This document shows, piece after piece, positions 6,545 to 16,333 of a stretch of DNA of 32,680 bases. How positions within the stretch are numbered: position 1 is the first letter of the stretch; the number at the start of each line of letters is the position of its first letter. The notes under the pieces are model-generated. The model worked only from the letters and a program-made list of their open reading frames with translations, had not been told where the DNA came from and did not search any database. The translations under genes were made by a program, and so were the position numbers. Source of the stretch: Luminiphilus sp. (lineage in GTDB: Bacteria > Pseudomonadota > Gammaproteobacteria > Pseudomonadales > Halieaceae); the NCBI GenBank assembly GCA_029242325.1, contig JAQWUD010000041.1:1-32680 (forward strand), given 5' to 3'.

Positions 6545-6613
6545 CCTACCCACAGGTCATCGCTGCCCTATTTCCCCGTGCTTCGCGCTGGAGCGCGAGA
6601 ACGAGACAGAGAC

Positions 6614-7513
6614 ATGAGCACGCAGATTCAGCATCTTGCCGCGAATACTCCGCAAGAAGAGTTGCTCCAACACATGGCTGCAGATGGCGCCGTCATCATC
6701 GACAACGTACTGGACAGCCAACGGCTCTGCGCACTGGCTCAGGAGCTCGACCCCTTTCTGGAGAACGAGGTCTACGGTCGAGATGCGTTTACCGGTTTTC
6801 ACACGCAACGCATCGGCGCGCTAATCGCTCGCTCACGGGCTTGTGGTGAACTGGCGCTGGAGCCCCAACTGCTCGATGCGGCACGAGCCTATCTGGCAGA
6901 GCATTGCGACGACGTGCAATTACACTTTACGTCTGCGGTGGCTATCGCTCCAGGCGAGTCTGCACAAATCTTGCACCGTGATCGTGGCATTTGGGGTGGC
7001 TATGTGCCGCGACAAATTGAACCACTGTTCAGCACGATCTGGGCGCTCACACCGTTCACAAAAGAGAACGGCGCGACGCAGGTTGCAGTTGGCTCACACC
7101 GCTGGGAGAAGCAGCGTCAGCCGCAGCCGCATGAAATTGCCTACGCCGAGATGTCACCCGGCTCCGTGCTGTGCTACAACGGCACGGTACTTCATGGCGG
7201 TGGCGCCAACACCACTGACAACGACACGCGCGTCGGAGTCTTTTTACACTACACCCTGAATTGGCTGCGCCAGGAAGAGAACCAATACCTTTCCTGTCCT
7301 CCCGAACATGCGCAATACCTTCCGCAGGAGCTTCGCGCACTCATTGGCTATGCCAAAGGGGGATATGTACTGGGTTTCTATTCAGATCCTGATGACAATA
7401 GTGCCGAACATGAGTCGGTCAGTCCTGAGAATCTGTTCAGTCGGCACCGCGACGAGTTCGACACATTGCCGAGTGAGGAGCAACTGGTGTCGCGATCGAC
7501 ACCTGAGGCCTAG
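6614..7513 (+). CDS. Phytanoyl-CoA dioxygenase (PhyH) family Fe(II)/2-oxoglutarate oxygenase
   Basis: A 299-aa cytoplasmic protein from ATG 6614 (an upstream GTG at 6578 would add 12 residues of low-complexity Arg-rich sequence). It has the HxD...H facial triad of the family: HRD (His121, Asp123) and LHGGG (His194). Arg206 in TRVGVFLHY is the expected 2-oxoglutarate-binding residue. PhyH-like enzymes hydroxylate very diverse substrates such as branched acyl-CoA, ectoine and halogenated intermediates, and the substrate cannot be read here. It lies 69 bp after the isoaspartyl peptidase and converges with the gamma-glutamyltransferase gene, only 2 bp separating the stops. Confidence 0.92.
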   Translation: MSTQIQHLAANTPQEELLQHMAADGAVIIDNVLDSQRLCALAQELDPFLENEVYGRDAFTGFHTQRIGALIARSRACGELALEPQLLDAARAYLAEHCDDVQLHFTSAVAIAPGESAQILHRDRGIWGGYVPRQIEPLFSTIWALTPFTKENGATQVAVGSHRWEKQRQPQPHEIAYAEMSPGSVLCYNGTVLHGGGANTTDNDTRVGVFLHYTLNWLRQEENQYLSCPPEHAQYLPQELRALIGYAKGGYVLGFYSDPDDNSAEHESVSPENLFSRHRDEFDTLPSEEQLVSRSTPEA

Positions 7514-7515
7514 TG

Positions 7516-9330
7516 CTACCAAGCCACTACCGTGCCGTCTTTGCGCATCTCGGTGGCGCCCACGTAGACCCCGTCGGGCAGCCGCATAATGGCCTGATAT
7601 CCGCCGAATGGCGCACCGGTGTTATCCACCTCCACGCGGTGTCCCATCGCACGAAGCTGCTCTACTGTTTCAGCCGGCACTCCCGGTTCGACCAAGAGTG
7701 TTCCTAATAGGTCTTGATGAACCCCGGTGGGTTGGCGTCCGCCATCGTGATTGAACCGCGCTGCATCGCCCGCTGTCTGCACGTCCATCCCAAAGTCTAT
7801 GATATTCACAAGGACCTGTACGTGACCCTGGGGCTGCATCGCGCCGCCCATCAGGCCGAAGCTCATGAATGGCTCGCCGTCCTTCATGACAAACGCCGGG
7901 ATGATGGTATGAAACGGTCGCTTGCCGGGCGCATAGACATTCGGATGATCCTCTTCCAGCGAGAAGAGCTCTCCCCGATTCTGAAGCATGAACCCAAGGC
8001 CATCGGGCACCAGCCCAGTCCCCATGCCGCGGTAGTTCGACTGAATCAGCGACACCATCATGCCGTTGGCATCGGCAACTGTGAGATAAGTGGTATCGCC
8101 CTCCCCCTCCAATTTGGGCTCACCGGGACCAAACTCAGGAGTAGCCCGCGTGGGGTCGATCAGCGCCAATCGCTCTTCGCCGTAGGCCTCTGACAACAAT
8201 GACTCAAGCGGAACTTTCGCGAAGGCGGGGTCGGCGTAATAGCGCGCGACATCCTCAAAGGCCAAACGCTTGGCCTCAACCATGTAATGAAAGGCTTTTG
8301 CCGAGCCACGCGGAAAATCACGCAAGTCAATCTGCTTCAATATGTTGAGCATTTGTAATGCAGCGTAGCCCTGGCCATTGGGCGGGAGTTCATAAACATC
8401 ATAGCCATGGTAGTGAACACTCCCGGGCGTAACCCATTCACCCTGATGAGCAGACAAATCCTCGAGTCGCAGGTCAGCGCCAATGCGCCGGAAATAGGCG
8501 TCCATCACCGCCGCCAGACGGCCCTCGTAAAAAGCAGCACGCCCCTCAGTACCCAGTAACTCAAGCGTATTGGCGAGGTCAGGATTACGTAAGACTTCAC
8601 CTGCCTGAGGTGTTTTTCCCTCGGGAAACCAGAGCGCCGCCGCGTTGTCGAGCTCTTCGATCAGTGCCTGCTGCTCTCTGAAGGCAGTCAGGTTGCGGGC
8701 GAAGTAATACGCAATCACGGGCGAGACAGGAAACCCTTCGCGGGCATAACGAATGGTCGGCGCGAGCACATCAGACATGGGCAAGTTACCAAAACGCGCA
8801 TGCGCGGCGAACCAACCGTCCACAGTCCCTGGCACCGTGACAGGCAGCGAACCGCGATGCGGCATACCGAGCATGTCATCGGGCATCGCGCCGCTGCCTC
8901 GTAGCGACCTGATCTGAGATTTCAAGTCATCCAGAGAGCGCCCCAGTGGCGCTCGTCCCGAACCGTTGTAGCCATAGAGCTGCTCGGTTTTGGGATCCCA
9001 AATGATGAGAAAAATATCACCGCCAATGCCGTTCCCCGTGGGCTCCATCAACCCCAAAGCCGCATTGGCTGCAATCGCGCCATCGAGGGCTGACCCCCCC
9101 TGCTTGAGGATGTCGATCGCGACCTGGGAAGCCAGCGGATGCGCGGTAGCCGCCATGCCGTTGCGACCATAAACCGCACTGCGGCTCCATGGTACGGCGG
9201 CAGGTCTGCCACCAGCACCCAGCGTCACGGTTTTTGCGCTAACGGAAGCAGATTGATCCACGTTAGAAACGGCGCATCCTGTAATGATGAGGCTCATACC
9301 GGCCATCACCAATAATCTGTGGAAGGTCAT
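7516..9330 (-). CDS. ggt: Gamma-glutamyltransferase lipoprotein
   Basis: A 604-aa precursor with a lipoprotein signal (MTFHRLLVMAGMSLIITGC, Cys19), so it should be membrane-anchored on the periplasmic side. The large subunit shows NGMAATAHPLAS, GNGIGGDIFLIIW and GSLPVTVPGTVDGW. Self-cleavage is expected at GEGDTTYLTVAD, with Thr413 as nucleophile. In the usual NTTH motif the last residue is His; here it is Tyr. The C-terminal PFHTIIPAFVMKDGEPFMSFG and GAPFGGYQAI regions are family-typical. The family transfers or hydrolyses gamma-glutamyl groups of glutathione and related compounds. It lies 107 bp downstream of the FGGY kinase gene, so it could be read from that operon or have its own promoter. 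It converges with the PhyH gene. Confidence 0.94.
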   Translation of the reverse strand: MTFHRLLVMAGMSLIITGCAVSNVDQSASVSAKTVTLGAGGRPAAVPWSRSAVYGRNGMAATAHPLASQVAIDILKQGGSALDGAIAANAALGLMEPTGNGIGGDIFLIIWDPKTEQLYGYNGSGRAPLGRSLDDLKSQIRSLRGSGAMPDDMLGMPHRGSLPVTVPGTVDGWFAAHARFGNLPMSDVLAPTIRYAREGFPVSPVIAYYFARNLTAFREQQALIEELDNAAALWFPEGKTPQAGEVLRNPDLANTLELLGTEGRAAFYEGRLAAVMDAYFRRIGADLRLEDLSAHQGEWVTPGSVHYHGYDVYELPPNGQGYAALQMLNILKQIDLRDFPRGSAKAFHYMVEAKRLAFEDVARYYADPAFAKVPLESLLSEAYGEERLALIDPTRATPEFGPGEPKLEGEGDTTYLTVADANGMMVSLIQSNYRGMGTGLVPDGLGFMLQNRGELFSLEEDHPNVYAPGKRPFHTIIPAFVMKDGEPFMSFGLMGGAMQPQGHVQVLVNIIDFGMDVQTAGDAARFNHDGGRQPTGVHQDLLGTLLVEPGVPAETVEQLRAMGHRVEVDNTGAPFGGYQAIMRLPDGVYVGATEMRKDGTVVAW

Positions 9331-9437
9331 TCAATTGATTGCTCATCACATTGCCATGCGATGCATGATAGGGGATGTCACACTATAGATCTCTATCGCG
9401 ATCTGGCCCCTTTCAGTGGCGCACCCGTTCCGGAAGG

Positions 9438-10994
9438 CTAAGAAGAGGACTGTTTTGCGAACAGTGACTTCAGGCGACCATAAAGCGGGTGATAGGTCGT
9501 CTGATAGAGGCTGTCGTAACAGGCAACTGCTCGAGCGTTGGGAGCGGTGAGTCGCGTCTTGCCCACCATTGCCGCCCCAGCCGCTACCATCGACGGATAC
9601 CACCCCAGTGCCGCCGCCGCCATTATGGCGGCTCCGCGCCCACTGGCTTCACAATCCTCGAAGCGCTCAACGGGCAGATTGAGCACATCCGCCATGATCT
9701 GCGCAACTTGGTCACTCTGAGCACCTCCCCCCGACAATCGAATCCGGGAGATAGGAGTTTTGGTACGGTGCTCAATCCGCTCTTTCCCCGAGCGTAAGGC
9801 GAACGCCAGCCCTTCGATAAGCGCGCGGTAAAGATGAGCGCGTGTGTGAAAATCCTTGAAGCCTACAATGCTGCCGCGGCCCTCCGGACCCGTTTCTCCC
9901 AGCACCGGGTTCCAGAACGGTTGTAATACAAGACCACCGGCCCCCGGCTCAGTCTCGTTCAACAATGCCTCAAGCAACACCTCGGGCGCCACCTGCCGGG
10001 CCACCGACTCCTGACGCTCCAGCGCGCCAAACTGCTCCAGAAACCAACTAACCATCCAGAACCCACGGAAAATCTGAATTTCCGTATTGAAGTGCGCGGG
10101 AATCGCCGCGGGGTAAGCGGGCATAAAAGGCACAACCTCGGCGTAGCGAGCACGTGTGGTATTGATAGTCGCCGTCGTCCCACAAGAGACACTGGCAATA
10201 TCGGGAGAGAGGGCCCCAACACCCAGCACTTCGCAGGCTTTGTCTGCGGCTCCTGCGATAACGGGCACACCCGCTGGCAAACCGGTGTCTTCAGCGGCGT
10301 CTGCTGTGACTTCTCCAAGCGTCTCTCCAACGGCTACAAGATGGGGCAGCATGTAGCGCTTAACGGCAACACTGTGCCATTTCCAATCTGAAGGAGCGCA
10401 CCAGTCGTGCTTTTTGAAATCAAAAGGTAAATAGCCCACCTGGCTGCCGACAGCGTCTCGGAATTCACCCGTCAATCGGTAATTTAAATATCCCGAAAGG
10501 AGCAGATAATGCGCAGTCCGCGCCAAAATATCCGGCTGGTGTCGCTCCAGCCAGTTTGCTTCGGCCTCGGCTTCGAAATTATCGACAACGGGGCGAATCT
10601 TCAGGAGCGTAAATAGCACTCGCCAGTACCACGGCAAGCGATTGCGCAGCGGCGCCCGTCGCTGGTCAGTCCAGACGATAGCGGGACGCAATGGCCGTCC
10701 AGCCTCATCGAGATTGATCACCGTCGCGCGCTGCGTGGTCACGACCACGGCAGCGATCTCGGTAGGCGAGATGCCCTGCCGCCACAGCCCCTGGCAACTT
10801 TCCTTGAGAAGCGTCCAGAATCCCTCAACTTCGTGCTCAGACCACCCGGGTTCAGGATGTCGGTAATCACTGATAGCGATCTGACACTTTGCCCGGCATT
10901 CGCCCGACCGCGTGTACGCAAGTGCCCGCACGCTCTGAGTCCCGAAATCGATCGCCAGGATCATCGGGCCTGCGCCACTGGCCGACGTGCTCAC
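9438..10994 (-). CDS. FGGY-family carbohydrate (polyol) kinase
   Basis: A 518-aa cytoplasmic kinase. The N-terminal phosphate loop is AIDFGTQSVRALAY, followed by VVTTQRATVINLDEAGRPL and AIVWTDQRR as in glycerol and xylulose kinases. The second actin-like domain has CGTTATINTT and the ADP-site motif LSGGGAQSDQ, then the FGGY-typical ASGRGAAIMAA. It phosphorylates a polyol or sugar. Glycerol or a glycerol derivative is the natural guess from its neighbours, but the sequence is not close enough to GlpK to say so. The start is GTG 10994, with GAGG overlapping the upstream stop; ATG 10964 is an alternative. Only 10 bp separate it from the AGPS-like gene, so it is the third gene of that operon. Confidence 0.9.
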   Translation of the reverse strand: MSTSASGAGPMILAIDFGTQSVRALAYTRSGECRAKCQIAISDYRHPEPGWSEHEVEGFWTLLKESCQGLWRQGISPTEIAAVVVTTQRATVINLDEAGRPLRPAIVWTDQRRAPLRNRLPWYWRVLFTLLKIRPVVDNFEAEAEANWLERHQPDILARTAHYLLLSGYLNYRLTGEFRDAVGSQVGYLPFDFKKHDWCAPSDWKWHSVAVKRYMLPHLVAVGETLGEVTADAAEDTGLPAGVPVIAGAADKACEVLGVGALSPDIASVSCGTTATINTTRARYAEVVPFMPAYPAAIPAHFNTEIQIFRGFWMVSWFLEQFGALERQESVARQVAPEVLLEALLNETEPGAGGLVLQPFWNPVLGETGPEGRGSIVGFKDFHTRAHLYRALIEGLAFALRSGKERIEHRTKTPISRIRLSGGGAQSDQVAQIMADVLNLPVERFEDCEASGRGAAIMAAAALGWYPSMVAAGAAMVGKTRLTAPNARAVACYDSLYQTTYHPLYGRLKSLFAKQSSS

Positions 10995-11004
10995 AGCGGG
11001 GGCC

Positions 11005-12411
11005 TCATTTCAAATGATCTGGAGGCAAGAGGTTGCCTGGGTTGAGAATACCTTTTGGGTCGATGGCGCTCTTGAGAGTCCGCAGCAAATCGAGCCCAAC
11101 CTCACCCAGATCATGGTGGAGATAATCCTGCCTGAGCCGTCCTGAACCGTGGTGGTGAGCAATGCCGCCACCCGCCCTTGCAGTGGCAGTCAGAGCGCGA
11201 TCCCAACTCTCAAGATAGCGATCACCCATCACCGCCGCCGCCTCGGGCATTGCGGCAAAGGTGAAGTAAAGGTTGATGCCTGAGCGATAAACATGAGAGC
11301 TGTGGGCTGAGGCATTGACACAGTCTGGCACCGACTTCAAAGCCGCGACAACGTTCTGGTAAATGGCATCAATCTGGCTCCAGGTACCAGAAACTTCGAT
11401 CGTATCGGCGATCAACCCCTGCTCTAACAAATCGCGCCATTCAGGCACGTTATTGCGATGACTCATCCAGTCCTCGGCTACCGCGGGATCAGCCTCCTTT
11501 AAGCCCATGGAAGACATGAGCGATTCAATCGCGGCGACCTCGGCATCTACTCTCGAAGAGGGCCCCTCATGAACCAGAAGGATCAGGCACATCTCATCCC
11601 GCACGTACTCAGGAAACAAGCGCGAGACTTCCGAGGCGTCGTACTGTCGCATCACCGGAGGCCGCCAATCCTGATGAATAACTTCCCGCTGGGCGCGAAA
11701 GCCCGATGCCATATCCAAGCAGTACCATGCGCCGAACCGGCGGGCCTCTGGCTGCCTGCGCAGTGATAGCGTCACTGAGGTGACAATACCGTGAGTGCCC
11801 TCAGCCCCCAATGCCAAATGGCGGAGGTCAGGGCCTGCCGCTGCACGGGGTGCTTTCCCGAGCGTCACCAACTCACCAGTGGGGAGCACCAACTCGAGCG
11901 CATAAACAATGTTCTCGATATTGCCATAAGCCGTTGAGAACTGGCCCGATGCACGGGTTGAAATCCAGCCTCCTACCGAGCTGATGGCAATCGATTGTGG
12001 CCAGTGACCAATGGTCAGGCCGCGCTCGGCTACTGCTTCCTCGGCGACCAATCCATTAACGCCCGCCTCCACGGTGAGAAGCAAGTTCTCCTCATCAATC
12101 GACAGCACACGATTCATGGCACTCATATCCAGCAGAATCTGGTCTCCACGGGGTTCTATGCCACCACAAACCCCGCTGCCCAAGCCCCAAGGTACGATGG
12201 CAATGCCATGCACATTGGCATAACCGACCACCGCCCGAACATCATCCACGCTGCGGGGTTTCACTACACACCCCGGCGTTTCCAATGTCTCACCCTGCCA
12301 ATCCTGCCAATGCTTCAGGCACCAGCGATCAAAGCGATAAGCCGACAAAGCCTCTGGATCGCTTGCGACCTGCTCTGCCCCGATTAAATCAGCCAGTTGC
12401 TCGACAAACAT
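11005..12411 (-). CDS. FAD-binding oxidase, alkyl-dihydroxyacetonephosphate synthase (AGPS)-like
   Basis: A 468-aa flavoprotein of the VAO/PCMH family. The FAD domain has VPWGLGSGVCGG (about 73-84) and VGGWISTRASGQFSTAYGNI (about 147-166), which closely match the AGPS version of this loop. Near the C-terminus is AHHHGSGRLR with three consecutive histidines (419-421), the active-site hallmark of AGPS, which swaps the acyl group of acyl-DHAP for a fatty alcohol to make ether lipid. Glycolate and lactate oxidases of the same fold lack this triple His. ATG 12411 is chosen for its AAGGAG site at about 6 nt; a longer reading from 12492 would overlap the upstream gene by 104 bp. It overlaps the GlpD-like gene by 23 bp, so coupling is likely. 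Synthesis or breakdown of ether lipid is inference. Confidence 0.88.
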   Translation of the reverse strand: MFVEQLADLIGAEQVASDPEALSAYRFDRWCLKHWQDWQGETLETPGCVVKPRSVDDVRAVVGYANVHGIAIVPWGLGSGVCGGIEPRGDQILLDMSAMNRVLSIDEENLLLTVEAGVNGLVAEEAVAERGLTIGHWPQSIAISSVGGWISTRASGQFSTAYGNIENIVYALELVLPTGELVTLGKAPRAAAGPDLRHLALGAEGTHGIVTSVTLSLRRQPEARRFGAWYCLDMASGFRAQREVIHQDWRPPVMRQYDASEVSRLFPEYVRDEMCLILLVHEGPSSRVDAEVAAIESLMSSMGLKEADPAVAEDWMSHRNNVPEWRDLLEQGLIADTIEVSGTWSQIDAIYQNVVAALKSVPDCVNASAHSSHVYRSGINLYFTFAAMPEAAAVMGDRYLESWDRALTATARAGGGIAHHHGSGRLRQDYLHHDLGEVGLDLLRTLKSAIDPKGILNPGNLLPPDHLK

Positions 12412-14017
12412 CCGTCTCTCCTTGCCACCCGGTGACCTCCAGAAACCCCGCACGGCTCTCCCGATCGATATGATGGCAATTATCGATCTCAAGCGTTATG
12501 CGCGCTTGATCCCAACTCAGCCACTCTGCCATGGCATGGGCCGCCTGCGAAAGAATCGGCAGGCCCGCGCCCTGATCAAACCAGGCGCGGCTACTGCGGC
12601 GCGCCCAGTAATCCTCCAGGCGCAGTGCACCTTCGTTCAGAACCGCGTGCTGCACTTCGGCCATCACCAAACCCTTATCGGCCGCAACGCTCGCCACACC
12701 GGGAGCCTCAGCCCCATAAAGCCGCGCCAACCGCTCTGCCTGAGCGCCCTCAACAGGTGTTAGAAAGTGGGCAGAGACTGCCGCTTCCCCGCCGGGCAGG
12801 GGTATTTCGGCGGTAGCACAGGGCTTCGCCGTGAACGCATTGTTCGCCGCCACAGTATCTACAATTCGCTCGGCCATAGCGCGGTACGCAGATAGTTTGC
12901 CGCCGCCTACCGAGAGCAGCCCGCTCGCAGATGTCCATACCTCATCCTTACGCGATAACTCTTTCGAAGCGCGACCCGAACCATCTCCCACAAGCGGACG
13001 GATACCGGACCACACTGACACAATATTGTTAGCCGAAGCATTTGTTTCAGGCATGACCCTCTGAGTTTCCGAAAGGAGATAGCGTACGTCTTGCTCGGTC
13101 ACCGGAGGCCAATATTCGCAATCTGGGTGGTAATCGTCGGTGGTGCCGATGTAGGTGTACAGCCCTAATGGCACGGCGAAAATGCGCCGCCCATCGTGGG
13201 TCCGCATCACCACTGTGCTGCGCACCGGGAGATCGGCGTGGTTGAACACGAGATGTACGCCGCGACTCAGCGCCAATCTGGGCTCGTGATCTCGCTCCAA
13301 CCCACATACCTCGTCGACCCATGGACCCGCGGCATTGACCACAGCTCTGGCACGCAAGGTAACCTCACTGGTATCTCCCGGCAAAGTAGAGGCGGCGTTC
13401 ACAACGAAATCACCCTCGCGCCGAATACTGGTAGCCTTGAGATACGTCGACACTGTGGCACCGTATTCGATCGCCGAGCGCACAGTCGCTAACGTTAATC
13501 GCGAGTCATCGGTCAGGAATTCCGGATACACCACGGCGCCATTTAGACGTGAGCGCTCCACCAATGGCTCCTGCTCGGCTAACTGATCCACAGACCATGA
13601 CTCATGATAGTCCTGAGGCTCGACACCCCCGAGGCGCTCATAGGCCCAGAGTGCACCGCGCAATAACAGTTTGCTGCGCATACTCCCGGTAGGAATCACA
13701 TATGGCGTTTTCTGCGCTAAATGGGGCGCAATGCGATGCAAAGTACTGCGCTCTGAAGCGGACTCCTTCACTACCGCGACATCACCTGCCACCAGATATC
13801 GCAGACCTCCATGGATCATCTTGGAGCTACGGCTCGAAGTACCACTAGCAAGGTCCTGTGCCTCAATGAGAGCGACCGACAGGCCGCGCATGGCAGCATC
13901 TCGTGCCACACCCGCCCCAGTAATGCCGCCACCAATCACCAGCAAATCGAATACCTGATCGGACAACGCACTGACCGTAGCCCGTCGATTGCTCTGATTA
14001 AACGGTGGTTTCGTCAT
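12389..14017 (-). CDS. glpD: FAD-dependent glycerol-3-phosphate dehydrogenase, GlpD-like
   Basis: A 542-aa flavoprotein. The dinucleotide-binding motif is VIGGGITGAGVARDAAMRG (about 26-44), followed by SGTSSRSSKMIHGGLRYL, the signature that binds FAD and phosphate in GlpD/GlpA enzymes. SVWSGIRPLVGD and the C-terminal DAO_C-type domain (LEDYWARRSSRAWF) complete it. The family oxidises sn-glycerol-3-phosphate to dihydroxyacetone phosphate and passes electrons to quinone at the inner membrane. The start ATG 14017 has an AGGGGG ribosome site. It is the first gene of an operon with an AGPS-like enzyme and an FGGY kinase, divergent from a Crp/Fnr regulator. Because of this company the substrate could be a glycerol-ether phosphate instead of plain glycerol-3-phosphate. 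Confidence 0.92.
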   Translation of the reverse strand: MTKPPFNQSNRRATVSALSDQVFDLLVIGGGITGAGVARDAAMRGLSVALIEAQDLASGTSSRSSKMIHGGLRYLVAGDVAVVKESASERSTLHRIAPHLAQKTPYVIPTGSMRSKLLLRGALWAYERLGGVEPQDYHESWSVDQLAEQEPLVERSRLNGAVVYPEFLTDDSRLTLATVRSAIEYGATVSTYLKATSIRREGDFVVNAASTLPGDTSEVTLRARAVVNAAGPWVDEVCGLERDHEPRLALSRGVHLVFNHADLPVRSTVVMRTHDGRRIFAVPLGLYTYIGTTDDYHPDCEYWPPVTEQDVRYLLSETQRVMPETNASANNIVSVWSGIRPLVGDGSGRASKELSRKDEVWTSASGLLSVGGGKLSAYRAMAERIVDTVAANNAFTAKPCATAEIPLPGGEAAVSAHFLTPVEGAQAERLARLYGAEAPGVASVAADKGLVMAEVQHAVLNEGALRLEDYWARRSSRAWFDQGAGLPILSQAAHAMAEWLSWDQARITLEIDNCHHIDRESRAGFLEVTGWQGETDVCRATG

Positions 14018-14108
14018 ATTACCCCCTGTTACGAACCTCTAATTTAACAGTGCGGCTCTTTCCCAATTGTCTAAAATACGACATTCTTTTAATTTGGCCG
14101 GGCTTCGC
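14018..14108. promoter_or_regulatory. Divergent promoter between the glpD-like operon and the Crp/Fnr regulator
   Basis: This 91-bp gap holds a perfect 6-bp inverted repeat, CTGTTA (14026-14031) and TAACAG (14045-14050), with a 13-nt spacer. The left arm touches the glpD ribosome site and the right arm sits where the -35 of a plausible regulator promoter (-10 TAAAAT at 14072-14077) would be. The spacing differs from the classic TGTGA-N6-TCACA Crp site. It is a candidate operator for the adjacent regulator; this is inference only. Confidence 0.4.
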
Positions 14109-14825
14109 ATGGCGCAAGATCTTCCCACCACCGAGCTCATACGCTTCCTGGCAAAGCTCGCCGTATTTGAGCACCTGAAAAGAGAAGAACTCAGCGGCCT
14201 GTTAAGCCAATGTCGCCTGCATGCGCTGGAGCAGCGGCAGGTCATGCAGGCCGCAGGTGATCTGCATCATCACCTGTGGGTAATCGTCACCGGAGAAATT
14301 GCGATGGTCGCACGCTCCGAAGATGGCGAGGAACTGACACTCGCCATCTTCGGCCCGGGGAGCACTTCGAGCTGGATTGCGCTGTTTCACGATACGCCCG
14401 CTGAACGGAGTCTAATCGGCAGCGCGAAGAGCCACATCCTGGGCATCCCACGCAAGGTCGCCCTTAAGCTGCTCGAACAGCATCCGCGGCTCTATCCCAT
14501 TGTCCTCAAGATAGAGGCCAACCGGTTTCGGGCTGCACTTAACCTGCAGCAACACAATCTGGTACGAGAGCGACCGCGTCGCGTTGCGGGCCTTCTCCTG
14601 ATGCTGATGGAGATGAGTGGCGGGGGACATCATTCGCAGACCATCCGACTGACATCGCAACAACTAGCGAAAATGGCACACTGCTCCCGGCAATCAATCC
14701 ACGAAGCCATCAAAAACCTCGCGGCCCATGGTGCCGTCGTGCAGCGCTACGGTCGGATTGATGTGATCGATATTGAATTGCTCCGCGCGCTATACATAAA
14801 AGGTACCGCGGGCAAGGCTCATTGA
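14109..14825 (+). CDS. Crp/Fnr-family transcriptional regulator
   Basis: A 238-aa regulator. The N-terminal cyclic-nucleotide-binding-type beta-roll runs about 12-130. The C-terminal winged helix contains LTSQQLAKMAHCSRQSIHEAIKNL, with the recognition helix around CSRQSIHEAIKNL. The phosphate-binding cassette keeps ERS (99-101), but the position of the cAMP-contacting Glu of Crp (GEL) reads SWI. There is no Fnr-type cysteine cluster, so the effector is unknown and probably not cAMP bound in the standard way. ATG 14109 is taken as start; TTG 14067 would add 14 residues. It is divergent from the GlpD/AGPS-like/FGGY operon and is its natural candidate regulator. Its end overlaps the convergent amidohydrolase gene by 7 bp. 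Confidence 0.9.
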   Translation: MAQDLPTTELIRFLAKLAVFEHLKREELSGLLSQCRLHALEQRQVMQAAGDLHHHLWVIVTGEIAMVARSEDGEELTLAIFGPGSTSSWIALFHDTPAERSLIGSAKSHILGIPRKVALKLLEQHPRLYPIVLKIEANRFRAALNLQQHNLVRERPRRVAGLLLMLMEMSGGGHHSQTIRLTSQQLAKMAHCSRQSIHEAIKNLAAHGAVVQRYGRIDVIDIELLRALYIKGTAGKAH

Positions 14826-16333
14826 CTGGTACTCAGTATCAGATCTCCAATACCGCGCCGCGTGATCACGCGGCCCTGCTCCACCGACAGGCGTCCCCCG
14901 AGCCACACGCTGTGGATACCGTCCGGCGCAACAAATGGCTCCCGATAGGTAGCCTTGGCAGCCACCGACTCAGGATCAAAGATCACAAGATCCGCATCAG
15001 CGCCCACGCTGATACGACCTTTGAGTGCAAAAGCGGGTGCAAAGCGTTCCAACCGACGAGCGGGATATAAGCTGAGGCGTGCAATGGCATCGCTGAGATC
15101 CAATAATCGCTCATCGCGCACATACTGGCCCAGCACCCTCGCAGATGTTCCCGCCCCGTTGGGAACCGTTTTTTGACCGTAGTTCATCAGTGGCATCGCA
15201 TCGCTGGCGACCATCACATGGGGGCGCTGAATGACGCTACGATTCCAATCCTCGCGAATGTAGTGGTGCATGGTCTGACCATCCGGCCTCGACTGTCTGT
15301 AGGCGTTAAAAGAAGCCTCAGTGAGCCATTCACCCGTCTCCGCCCACTGCACATCCGTATAGCCGATAGCAAATATTTTGCGCCAATCTCGCGAAAAGAC
15401 ATCCGAAGAAATAGCAGCGGAACCCGATGTCCAGGGGAACATCTCAGTCGTGACATCCACTCCTCTGGCGCGCGCTGCATCGATCTTATCCAGCCAGACA
15501 TCTACTCCGCTCATCGCACTGGCATTCAGATGGCAAACATGTAGTGCTGCCCCACGCCGCTCGGCGGCTTCAATCACCTCGTCTAGCCCCGCAGGGTCGC
15601 CATCGATACCCCGGCGAACATGTACGAAAACGGGCACACCATGACGCGCGGCGACGTCGAAAACCATATCGCGCTCTGCGTCGTCCACAGCTTCTGTCAT
15701 GTAATCGAGCAAGAAGCCGATGCCGAGCCCACCTGCTTCAAGCTCTGCTTCCATGATCGCCCGAATCTGCTGACGTTGATTCTGGTTGGCGCGCTGAGTA
15801 AAGGTCACCCCCGACATATCCAGCTTGCCGGTCCTGGCTAGCGTTTCCAGTCCTTCGGGATCGATGACCCGCATTCTTATCCACGCATGTCCTACTGAAG
15901 CCCCAAAATGAGTAAGCGGCCGCTCACCCAAGCGCGCGCCAAACTGTTTGATAGGAAAACTCCCTGCCTCGAGCTCCAATACAGTGGTGATCCCATCCAG
16001 AAGCTCAAGCTGATAACCTGCCTCTGCCACACTGTGCGAATGCAGATTGATGAAACCCGGGCTCACTACCAAACCACTCGCATCGACTACCTGCTCAGCG
16101 GCTAATGGCTGCTCGCTAATGGCGACAATTTTCCCGTCGCGAATACCCAACGACCGCACCGCATCAAGTTGGCTTTCGGGGTCAATGACTCTGCCGTGAT
16201 TAATCGCAACATCGAGCGGCACGGCCTGCCACTCGCAGGCCACTAGAAATAAAAACAGAAGACAAAGGGGCGCGACTCTCGCGGCGTTCAGTACTCCTGC
16301 CGCAACCCATTGCGTCAGCAACACGCAGTCCAC
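14819..16333 (-). CDS. D-aminoacylase-like amidohydrolase, lipoprotein
   Basis: A 504-aa metal-dependent hydrolase of the N-acyl-D-amino-acid deacylase group. It begins with a hydrophobic leader and lipobox (LFLFLVAC, Cys33), so membrane anchoring outside the cytoplasm is likely. The amidohydrolase signature PGFINLHSH (His98, His100) provides two metal ligands. VFVHVRRG and LHVCHLNAS supply further His positions, and MVASDAMPL the conserved Asp. The C-terminal composite domain has GRISVGADADLVIFDP. The family removes N-acyl groups from D-amino acids or opens hydantoin-like rings; the substrate cannot be fixed here. The start is GTG 16333, with no strong ribosome site. It is convergent with and overlaps the Crp/Fnr gene. 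The gap to ctaB upstream is 38 bp, so the two may share a transcript. Confidence 0.87.
   Translation of the reverse strand: MDCVLLTQWVAAGVLNAARVAPLCLLFLFLVACEWQAVPLDVAINHGRVIDPESQLDAVRSLGIRDGKIVAISEQPLAAEQVVDASGLVVSPGFINLHSHSVAEAGYQLELLDGITTVLELEAGSFPIKQFGARLGERPLTHFGASVGHAWIRMRVIDPEGLETLARTGKLDMSGVTFTQRANQNQRQQIRAIMEAELEAGGLGIGFLLDYMTEAVDDAERDMVFDVAARHGVPVFVHVRRGIDGDPAGLDEVIEAAERRGAALHVCHLNASAMSGVDVWLDKIDAARARGVDVTTEMFPWTSGSAAISSDVFSRDWRKIFAIGYTDVQWAETGEWLTEASFNAYRQSRPDGQTMHHYIREDWNRSVIQRPHVMVASDAMPLMNYGQKTVPNGAGTSARVLGQYVRDERLLDLSDAIARLSLYPARRLERFAPAFALKGRISVGADADLVIFDPESVAAKATYREPFVAPDGIHSVWLGGRLSVEQGRVITRRGIGDLILSTSQ

Follow-up and report, generated by a model that had tools for sequence, protein, structure and literature searches.

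An AGPS-type flavoprotein operon with GlpD-like and FGGY-kinase genes in Luminiphilus sp.: a candidate catabolic module for O-substituted glycerols

In erythritol and polyol operons of the eryA-eryB kind, an FGGY kinase acts first and a GlpD-like dehydrogenase then works on the polyol phosphate; these operons are not known to contain an AGPS-type enzyme. Alkylglycerone-phosphate synthase (AGPS) takes acyl-dihydroxyacetone phosphate, a 1-O-substituted dihydroxyacetone phosphate (DHAP). Its reaction is described as proceeding through an adduct with the oxidised flavin, without net redox change, and R352, Y508 and R447 of the Dictyostelium enzyme matter for it (PMC3509576). Alkylglycerol monooxygenase (AGMO), which depends on tetrahydrobiopterin and cleaves the glyceryl ether bond, is described as the one enzyme so far known to act on free alkylglycerols (PMC7911779). 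Here we describe an operon of Luminiphilus sp. (Gammaproteobacteria, Halieaceae) that shares with the eryA-eryB operons the pairing of a kinase with a GlpD-type dehydrogenase and adds to them an AGPS-type flavoprotein. It lies on contig JAQWUD010000041.1 of assembly GCA_029242325.1, a stretch of 32,680 nucleotides hereafter called the window, in a genome of 2.76 Mb that is 96.5% complete. The most likely reading of the operon is as a catabolic AGPS-type module, which would convert an O-substituted glycerol (R-O-CH2-CHOH-CH2OH) into DHAP and an alcohol; we advance it tentatively, at a little short of an even chance. Should the module cleave, the outcome would be that of AGMO, an opened glyceryl ether bond, reached by unrelated enzymes.

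The E. coli cluster ygcP-ygcQRS-ygcU-ygcW-yqcE-ygcE provides a further point of comparison. It encodes an AGPS-type protein, YgcU (35% identical to the window flavoprotein over the aligned stretch), and an FGGY kinase, YgcE, that falls in the same branch as the window kinase, and it has in common with relatives of the module the glycerol-3-phosphate (G3P) antiterminator YgcP and transporters. It differs in that a short-chain dehydrogenase/reductase (SDR), YgcW, replaces GlpD, and in the flavoprotein genes ygcQR that stand alongside. Searches of a literature lacking most subscription journals turned up nothing, by title or abstract, on what ygcU, ygcE, ygcW or ygcP do, no paper on Rv2251 of Mycobacterium tuberculosis, and none whose title describes the glpD/AGPS-like/FGGY operon.

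The AGPS-type flavoprotein

The operon is encoded on the reverse strand and comprises a gene for a glpD-like FAD dehydrogenase of 542 aa (12389-14017; open reading frame and homology), a gene for the AGPS-type flavoprotein of 468 aa (11005-12411) and a gene for an FGGY-family kinase of 518 aa (9438-10994; Pfam FGGY_N and FGGY_C). The open reading frame of the flavoprotein gene extends further, over 11005-12492, and opens with TTG, and in some homologues the alignment starts from residue 2. Because the stretch between 12492 and 12411 holds a stop codon in five homologous loci (L005, L009, L011, L012, L022) and the match starts only at residue 24-29 in six others (L007, L010, L013, L018-L020), ATG 12411 is the likely start. 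With it, the 23-bp overlap with glpD that a first-pass annotation of the raw sequence had pointed out is most likely correct, and the 10-bp gap to the kinase gene was found as described there.

By sequence and predicted fold, the flavoprotein is a member of the AGPS family and not of the glycolate or lactate oxidases. It has the AGPS architecture of a VAO-type FAD-binding domain and an FAD-oxidase_C domain (Pfam), and its top PDB matches are the AGPS chains 2uuu of Dictyostelium (2.9e-54) and 4bby of guinea pig (1.6e-53), the best chain other than AGPS being a glycolate oxidase (1.1e-31); the glcD model scores 154.3 against a cut-off of 567.9. The GGWISTRASG loop, the YGNI motif and the triple histidine at 419-421 of the 468-aa protein, all noticed at first pass, are present. 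When the protein is aligned with AGPS and E. coli GlcD, R255, Y382 and H419-421 match Arg419, Tyr578 and His615-617 of AGPS, the positions of Y578 and R419 having been fixed via the mutant chains 4bca and 4bc7, and an equivalent of Arg515 is also found. GlcD carries a Glu at the R419 position and a GEHG loop, and the window protein is without this signature. Ten positions set the two types apart, being conserved in 32-33 of 33 AGPS-type sequences and in none of seven GlcD-type ones, and the window protein departs from AGPS at Q157, T133 and T337. R419 and Y578 occur without exception in 15 additional records, 14 of which also have the HHH motif; some other conserved positions vary, at Arg317 in Microbacterium and Paracoccus jeotgali and at several places in Mesorhizobium. 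Matches from Mycobacterium and Methanosaeta were set aside, since the five examined have a GlcD-type active site, and two partial sequences (L027 and L029) were assigned to neither class.

A maximum-likelihood tree, from which 10 near-duplicate or partial rows had been dropped, separates 27 AGPS-type rows from nine GlcD-like rows with a support of 90/93 (not starred). Eukaryotic AGPS is nested among the bacterial sequences, with other clades as its neighbours (99/99), and is not sister to the window clade. An AlphaFold2 model (mean predicted local distance difference test score, pLDDT, of 88.1) retrieves AGPS chains at ranks 1-27 of a fold search, with query-normalised template modelling (TM) scores of 0.82-0.88 for the mammalian chains (0.88 to 5ae2 and 4bby). 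The next rank, 28, is a D-lactate dehydrogenase with an E-value of 2e-34, against 1e-37 for rank 1, so that the fold by itself is not decisive. Database matches, catalytic residues, tree and fold search agree on the AGPS-like grouping proposed at first pass. The window protein differs from AGPS in its low identity (about 28%), its shorter length, its operon with a kinase and GlpD, and the variability of the R515 position among its orthologues.

Conservation of the operon and exchange of its partners

In all 18 orthologous loci from other genomes (L005-L022), hosted by Halieaceae/Luminiphilus, by Sphingopyxis and a Sphingomonadaceae assembly, and by Robiginitomaculum, the AGPS-like gene is immediately preceded by glpD. 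Downstream, 15 of them have a kinase gene, and in the other three the DNA ends first; the L013 copy (9425-10971) is broken over three frames, through sequencing error or decay. The three-gene neighbourhood seen at first pass in the window is hence conserved across genomes, and it recurs in other arrangements. Two loci (L044, L045) have the order AGPS-type gene, GlpD, kinase, with a diverged AGPS-type protein (HQHG). Among 80 genomes of family f175 there are eight AGPS-type matches, six of them in an operon of a major facilitator superfamily (MFS) transporter, a GlpK-like kinase, GlpD and the AGPS-type gene, followed by a YgcP-like protein; the copy in L041 belongs to the G3P-responsive antiterminators (Pfam G3P_antiterm), the family of E. 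coli ygcP.

The window flavoprotein matches 54 annotated plasmid records at E<=1e-45, and 14 of these, with one (Mesorhizobium) from a second search, make up an annotated set of 15, drawn from Pseudomonadota, Actinomycetota, Bacillota and Fusobacteriota. A kinase stands in the same cluster in 15/15, of the FGGY family in 12, of diacylglycerol/YegS-type lipid kinases in two and a four-carbon acid sugar kinase in one. A candidate C2 dehydrogenase is present in 14/15: GlpD in five, an SDR in five, PdxA in one, and in three a glycerol dehydrogenase or iron-containing alcohol dehydrogenase (Fe-ADH) plus an SDR about 6 kb further down the run. None is apparent in the Mesorhizobium record, whose AGPS-like protein is diverged (E-H-H). 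Judged by gene content, the AGPS-type enzyme is the constant part of the module, and kinase and dehydrogenase are swapped between unrelated families. That both partners are replaced non-homologously while the AGPS type persists is the best reason to suppose that the three genes would act in series.

In Methylobacterium nodulans (L123), the AGPS-type gene occurs with PdxA, the four-carbon acid sugar kinase, MaoC and a CoA transferase, the replacement families being ones known from acid-sugar catabolism. In Tsukamurella and Streptomyces fungicidicus (L129, L130) the run reads GlpD, TetR, AGPS-type gene, lipid kinase, which is also the layout of Rv2249c-Rv2252 in M. tuberculosis.

Within 61 genomes of the window's family, 21 AGPS-type matches were found at E<=1e-40. 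GlpD adjoins eight of them, and a kinase too in seven (the eighth lies at a contig end). A second AGPS-type clade, marked by an HHHA motif, comprises 12 loci of Halieaceae-family genomes (L046-L049, L057-L064) with no kinase or GlpD in the available DNA; three of its rows were placed in the tree, where they join eukaryotic AGPS and the L044/L045 type (99/99), and it is a candidate for true ether-lipid synthesis. These genes serve as a rough internal control, being of the same protein family and from the same bacteria, with no kinase seen. The window type itself is sparsely distributed. It occurs in none of four other genomes of the genus (E<=1e-40), in 1 of 120 genomes of the order of G552, and, at E<=1e-60, in at least 1 of 370 genomes of the class (the window's own) and at least 6 of 397 of the phylum (including its own and four of ygcU or f175-like types), where up to four candidates per genome were scored and the counts are lower bounds. 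This patchy distribution suggests horizontal spread of the operon.

The GlpD-like protein has G3P dehydrogenases and oxidases as its best PDB matches and scores below both NCBIfam GlpD models (294.9 against a cut-off of 360, and 270.2 against 352 bits). The residues of the GlpD G3P site are retained in the operon proteins, H233, R317, R332 and K354 in 30/30 rows and R54 and Y55 in 29/29 (one row is truncated); among 13 GlpD-type rows from outside the module, five have Lys at position 54 and one has Leu at 233. The predicted role of the enzyme is oxidation of a phosphorylated glycerol derivative at its C2 hydroxyl. In a tree from which 11 near-duplicate or partial rows were dropped, module GlpDs fall in three places of the best topology, and the well-supported branches are compatible with a single origin. 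A Leu48Met substitution was considered as a marker of the module (7/7 representatives in which the position is occupied, 0/13 other rows) and abandoned, as it was found in only 2/5 further records.

The kinase matches 12 NCBIfam models, each below its curated cut-off, and reaches 132.2 bits with the GlpK model TIGR01311 (cut-off 590.35). GlpK binds the glycerol hydroxyls via Arg83, Glu84, Tyr135 and Asp245, with Phe270 in contact (PMC3245297), and a similar site is described for the Plasmodium enzyme (PMC2680290). Canonical GlpKs read R-E-W-Y-D-Q-F at the glycerol-kinase positions in 14/14 cases, against R-A-W-F-D-K-T in the window and R-C-W-gap-D-K-A in the three YgcE-type rows. Glu84 and Tyr135 are missing in 28/28 operon kinases and in 0/14 canonical ones, while Arg83, Trp103 and Asp245 are kept; in the annotated records, Glu84 is absent in 12/12 kinases and Arg83 kept in eight. 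That the operon kinases are not glycerol kinases is, by this signature, a safe conclusion, and their pocket would be freed at the far end of glycerol. In the kinase tree the window protein groups with YgcE; module kinases are scattered over several branches, on both the XylB/YgcE and the GlpK side. Convergent loss of Glu84 was entertained and rejected, because canonical GlpKs form a single clade and two changes (one of them LsrK) suffice. Thirteen near-duplicate or partial rows were dropped from the first kinase tree, and 32 of 63 rows were used in the later one. The kinase and GlpD alignments leave out L013, L021 and L022 (contig ends) and the partial L044 kinase; L020 has no kinase within its available stretch, and the EcXylB row is incomplete.

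A candidate catabolic route and its rivals

Given that AGPS takes a 1-O-substituted DHAP, a free glycerol derivative would be turned into a compound of this type by a kinase plus a C2 dehydrogenase. The reactions, substrate and direction that we infer are these. The FGGY kinase would phosphorylate the free primary hydroxyl, and the GlpD-like enzyme would oxidise the C2 hydroxyl to give a 1-O-substituted DHAP, on which the flavoenzyme would perform AGPS chemistry with water in place of the fatty alcohol. Tyr382 would take the C1 proton, the carbanion would add to N5 of the oxidised flavin, ROH would leave, water would add and DHAP would be released; DHAP would then enter glycolysis, and ROH would be oxidised by other enzymes. 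The sequence of phosphorylation, oxidation and ether chemistry put forward in the first-pass annotation fits the residues, and the long-chain 1-O-alkylglycerol named there becomes one candidate substrate only, along with small glycerol ethers and glycosyl glycerols. In several lineages, sugar-type ATP-binding cassette (ABC) and MFS transporters point to a glycerol derivative that is small and hydrophilic, and the lipid kinases of two actinobacterial records suggest a lipid there. In four loci (L014-L017), Sphingopyxis included, a glycosidase of family GH31 and PRK10426 (YihQ) type (in L017, 874 bits against a cut-off of 553) lies close upstream of glpD. Its residues correspond to the sulfoquinovosidase set, which raised a possible link to sulfoquinovosyl glycerol; this link was not adopted, as no other sulfoquinovose enzyme was recognised in the stretches examined.

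The earlier proposal left open whether the ether bond is made or broken. Breakage is favoured, and synthesis appears less likely, because some relatives carry importers, alcohol or aldehyde dehydrogenases, or G3P-responsive antiterminators; the proposal had the kind of pathway right, and its direction is probably mistaken if it intended synthesis. The importers near relatives include TonB receptors as well as the MFS and sugar-type ABC systems. A Fe-ADH (39% identical) lies downstream in four of four Sphingopyxis/Sphingomonadaceae loci and in two of the six f175 genomes with the operon. In Paracoccus jeotgali, an ABC transporter and a CoA-binding protein precede GlpD, the AGPS-type gene and the FGGY kinase, and the run continues with aldehyde dehydrogenase, two enoyl-CoA hydratases, TetR, Fe-ADH and thioesterase, a content that reads like the disposal of a released alcohol. 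Most of the triad genomes already possess a pathway for glycerol, since a separate GlpK above the TIGR01311 cut-off is present in 12/12 tested (and in G565, of the ygcU type) and a second GlpD-type gene in 8/12, none having been found in the window genome and three g24 genomes.

Several observations weigh against a catabolic module of this kind. Family profile searches found no transporter and no alcohol dehydrogenase among the genes flanking the operon (6578-16333). A Fe-ADH was not found in the other four f175 genomes, where two stretches are short. Neither GlpD nor a kinase lies beside 13 of the 21 AGPS-type matches of the family sample within the available DNA, which is short for some (12 of them carry HHHA, and the last is cut before the motif), nor near two of the eight f175 matches. 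The position equivalent to Arg515 of AGPS (R447 in Dictyostelium), which AGPS needs for catalysis, varies among close orthologues (R, G, V, T, A, E, D), in a gapped local alignment, and L48M fails in three of five further GlpD records. Glu84 is also lacking in five of seven other aligned E. coli FGGY kinases besides YgcE, and the tree indicates that module kinases may never have been glycerol kinases. Where it is the sole one, in the window genome and its three g24 relatives, the operon GlpD may also serve ordinary glycerol use. Finally, electron-transfer flavoprotein (ETF) genes occur in the clusters of Enterococcus gilvus and Ilyobacter polytropus, and E. coli ygcQR are annotated as putative flavoproteins and are ETF-like; such genes suggest removal of electrons rather than a redox-neutral exchange in the SDR branch. 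A shared flavin-iminium intermediate could either return DHAP, in a neutral reaction, or hydrolyse to an aldehyde and reduced flavin, and the branches may differ in this respect.

These ETF genes, present in three of six SDR-type clusters if ygcQR are counted, would fit an oxidative polyol pathway. The flavoprotein would then be a true flavin dehydrogenase whose substrate, a phosphorylated ketose or polyol, contains no ether, or it would cleave an ether by oxidation, in either case handing electrons to ETF or a different acceptor. The sugar-type importers would suit it, as would the closeness of D-lactate dehydrogenase in the fold search and the fact that LctD, a distant sequence relative, is a subunit of an NAD/ferredoxin lactate dehydrogenase. 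The active site, however, is of the AGPS type, whose reaction is redox-neutral (PMC3509576), and it is without the GlcD-type signature. The five GlpD-type stretches of the annotated set carry no annotated ETF gene, the PLSDB gene tables being incomplete. This pathway is on balance unlikely, though a serious contender.

Production of alkyl-DHAP for the ether lipids of membranes, the role of AGPS in eukaryotes and Myxococcus, would accord with the family and with the R, R, Y and HHH residues all present in the window protein, and Agps homologues at 30% identity in metagenomes have been interpreted as a capacity for alkenyl-ether synthesis (PMC11868695). It is nevertheless improbable: kinase and GlpD would feed glycerol into DHAP, which central metabolism already makes, some relatives have the importers, antiterminators or alcohol-oxidising genes described above, and the same bacterial family holds in the HHHA type a different clade, with no kinase seen, that is nearer to eukaryotic AGPS. 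The plasmalogen desaturase profile PF10520 has no match in the window genome, nor in any control genome, and is uninformative. We consider it very improbable that the operon serves ordinary glycerol catabolism through a GlpK-like kinase and GlpD, with an unrelated flavin oxidase carried along. Its GlpD is the only GlpD-type gene found in the window genome at E<=1e-20 (weak matches begin at 6e-9) and has standard G3P-site residues, but the canonical GlpK is encoded elsewhere in every triad genome tested, the operon kinases uniformly lack the GlpK signature, and it is the AGPS-type gene that stays constant while kinase and dehydrogenase change.

Regulator, flanking genes and implications

As noted at first pass, the operon faces a divergent gene for a Crp/Fnr-family regulator (14109-14825, forward strand; Pfam cNMP_binding and HTH_Crp_2). 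Its likely start is ATG 14109, in preference to TTG 14067, because eight homologous loci match the TTG frame from residue 11-15. Between regulator and glpD, at 14065-14086 (no strand), lies a conserved dyad of the TTGTC-N8-GACAA type, a candidate operator through which the adjacent protein may control the operon. The dyad is present in 9/9 divergent crp-glpD gaps (the window and eight loci), with variable flanking bases, and is missing in three loci (L005, L011, L012) in which the regulator gene was also not found. The copy in the window departs from the ideal dyad by two mismatches, and about one such match is expected by chance per window, so the argument rests on conservation and position. 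A genome-wide scan gave seven places, against five for a reversed control pattern; such scarce enrichment would suit a local regulator. The recognition helix, CSRQS, is identical in the window genome and the eight orthologous loci, that of CRP being CSRET; the spacing is that of the CRP site TGTGA-N6-TCACA with one base changed. In g24 genomes the regulator is 41-44% identical and lies about 1.4 kb away, and no such dyad is present.

Beyond the regulator, on the reverse strand, lies an amidohydrolase gene of PRK09061-like type (14819-16333; NF006560, 422.5 bits against a cut-off of 340). In L005, L011 and L012, where it directly precedes glpD, the matches to the two genes share a strand and are about 40 bp apart, and the amidohydrolase gene may belong to the operon in some relatives. 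A homologue of 46% identity (L062:6886-8229) adjoins an HHHA-type AGPS gene in another genome. On the kinase side are genes for a PhyH-family dioxygenase (6578-7513) and a gamma-glutamyltransferase (7516-9330), both identified by Pfam. Among nine Halieaceae loci with a kinase, the gamma-glutamyltransferase is found in six and PhyH in four, and a PhyH gene also lies downstream of the operon in L039. The proline dehydrogenase/aldehyde dehydrogenase gene putA flanks the operon in Robiginitomaculum (L018, L019) on the same strand and in genus g24 (L035-L037) on the opposite one.

It is possible, though we would sooner doubt than assert it, that bacteria of at least four phyla share a cleaving AGPS-type core with interchangeable kinases and dehydrogenases, a second glyceryl-ether route besides AGMO that would also explain E. 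coli ygcP-ygcU-ygcW-ygcE. If so, bacteria would own a route for opening glyceryl ethers unrelated to AGMO, and some of the metagenomic Agps homologues that have been assigned to alkenyl-ether synthesis (PMC11868695) could be genes of breakdown instead. Genes now labelled 'FAD-binding oxidoreductase', 'xylulokinase' and 'glycerol-3-phosphate dehydrogenase', including ygcP, ygcU, ygcW and ygcE of E. coli K-12, would thereby gain a testable meaning.

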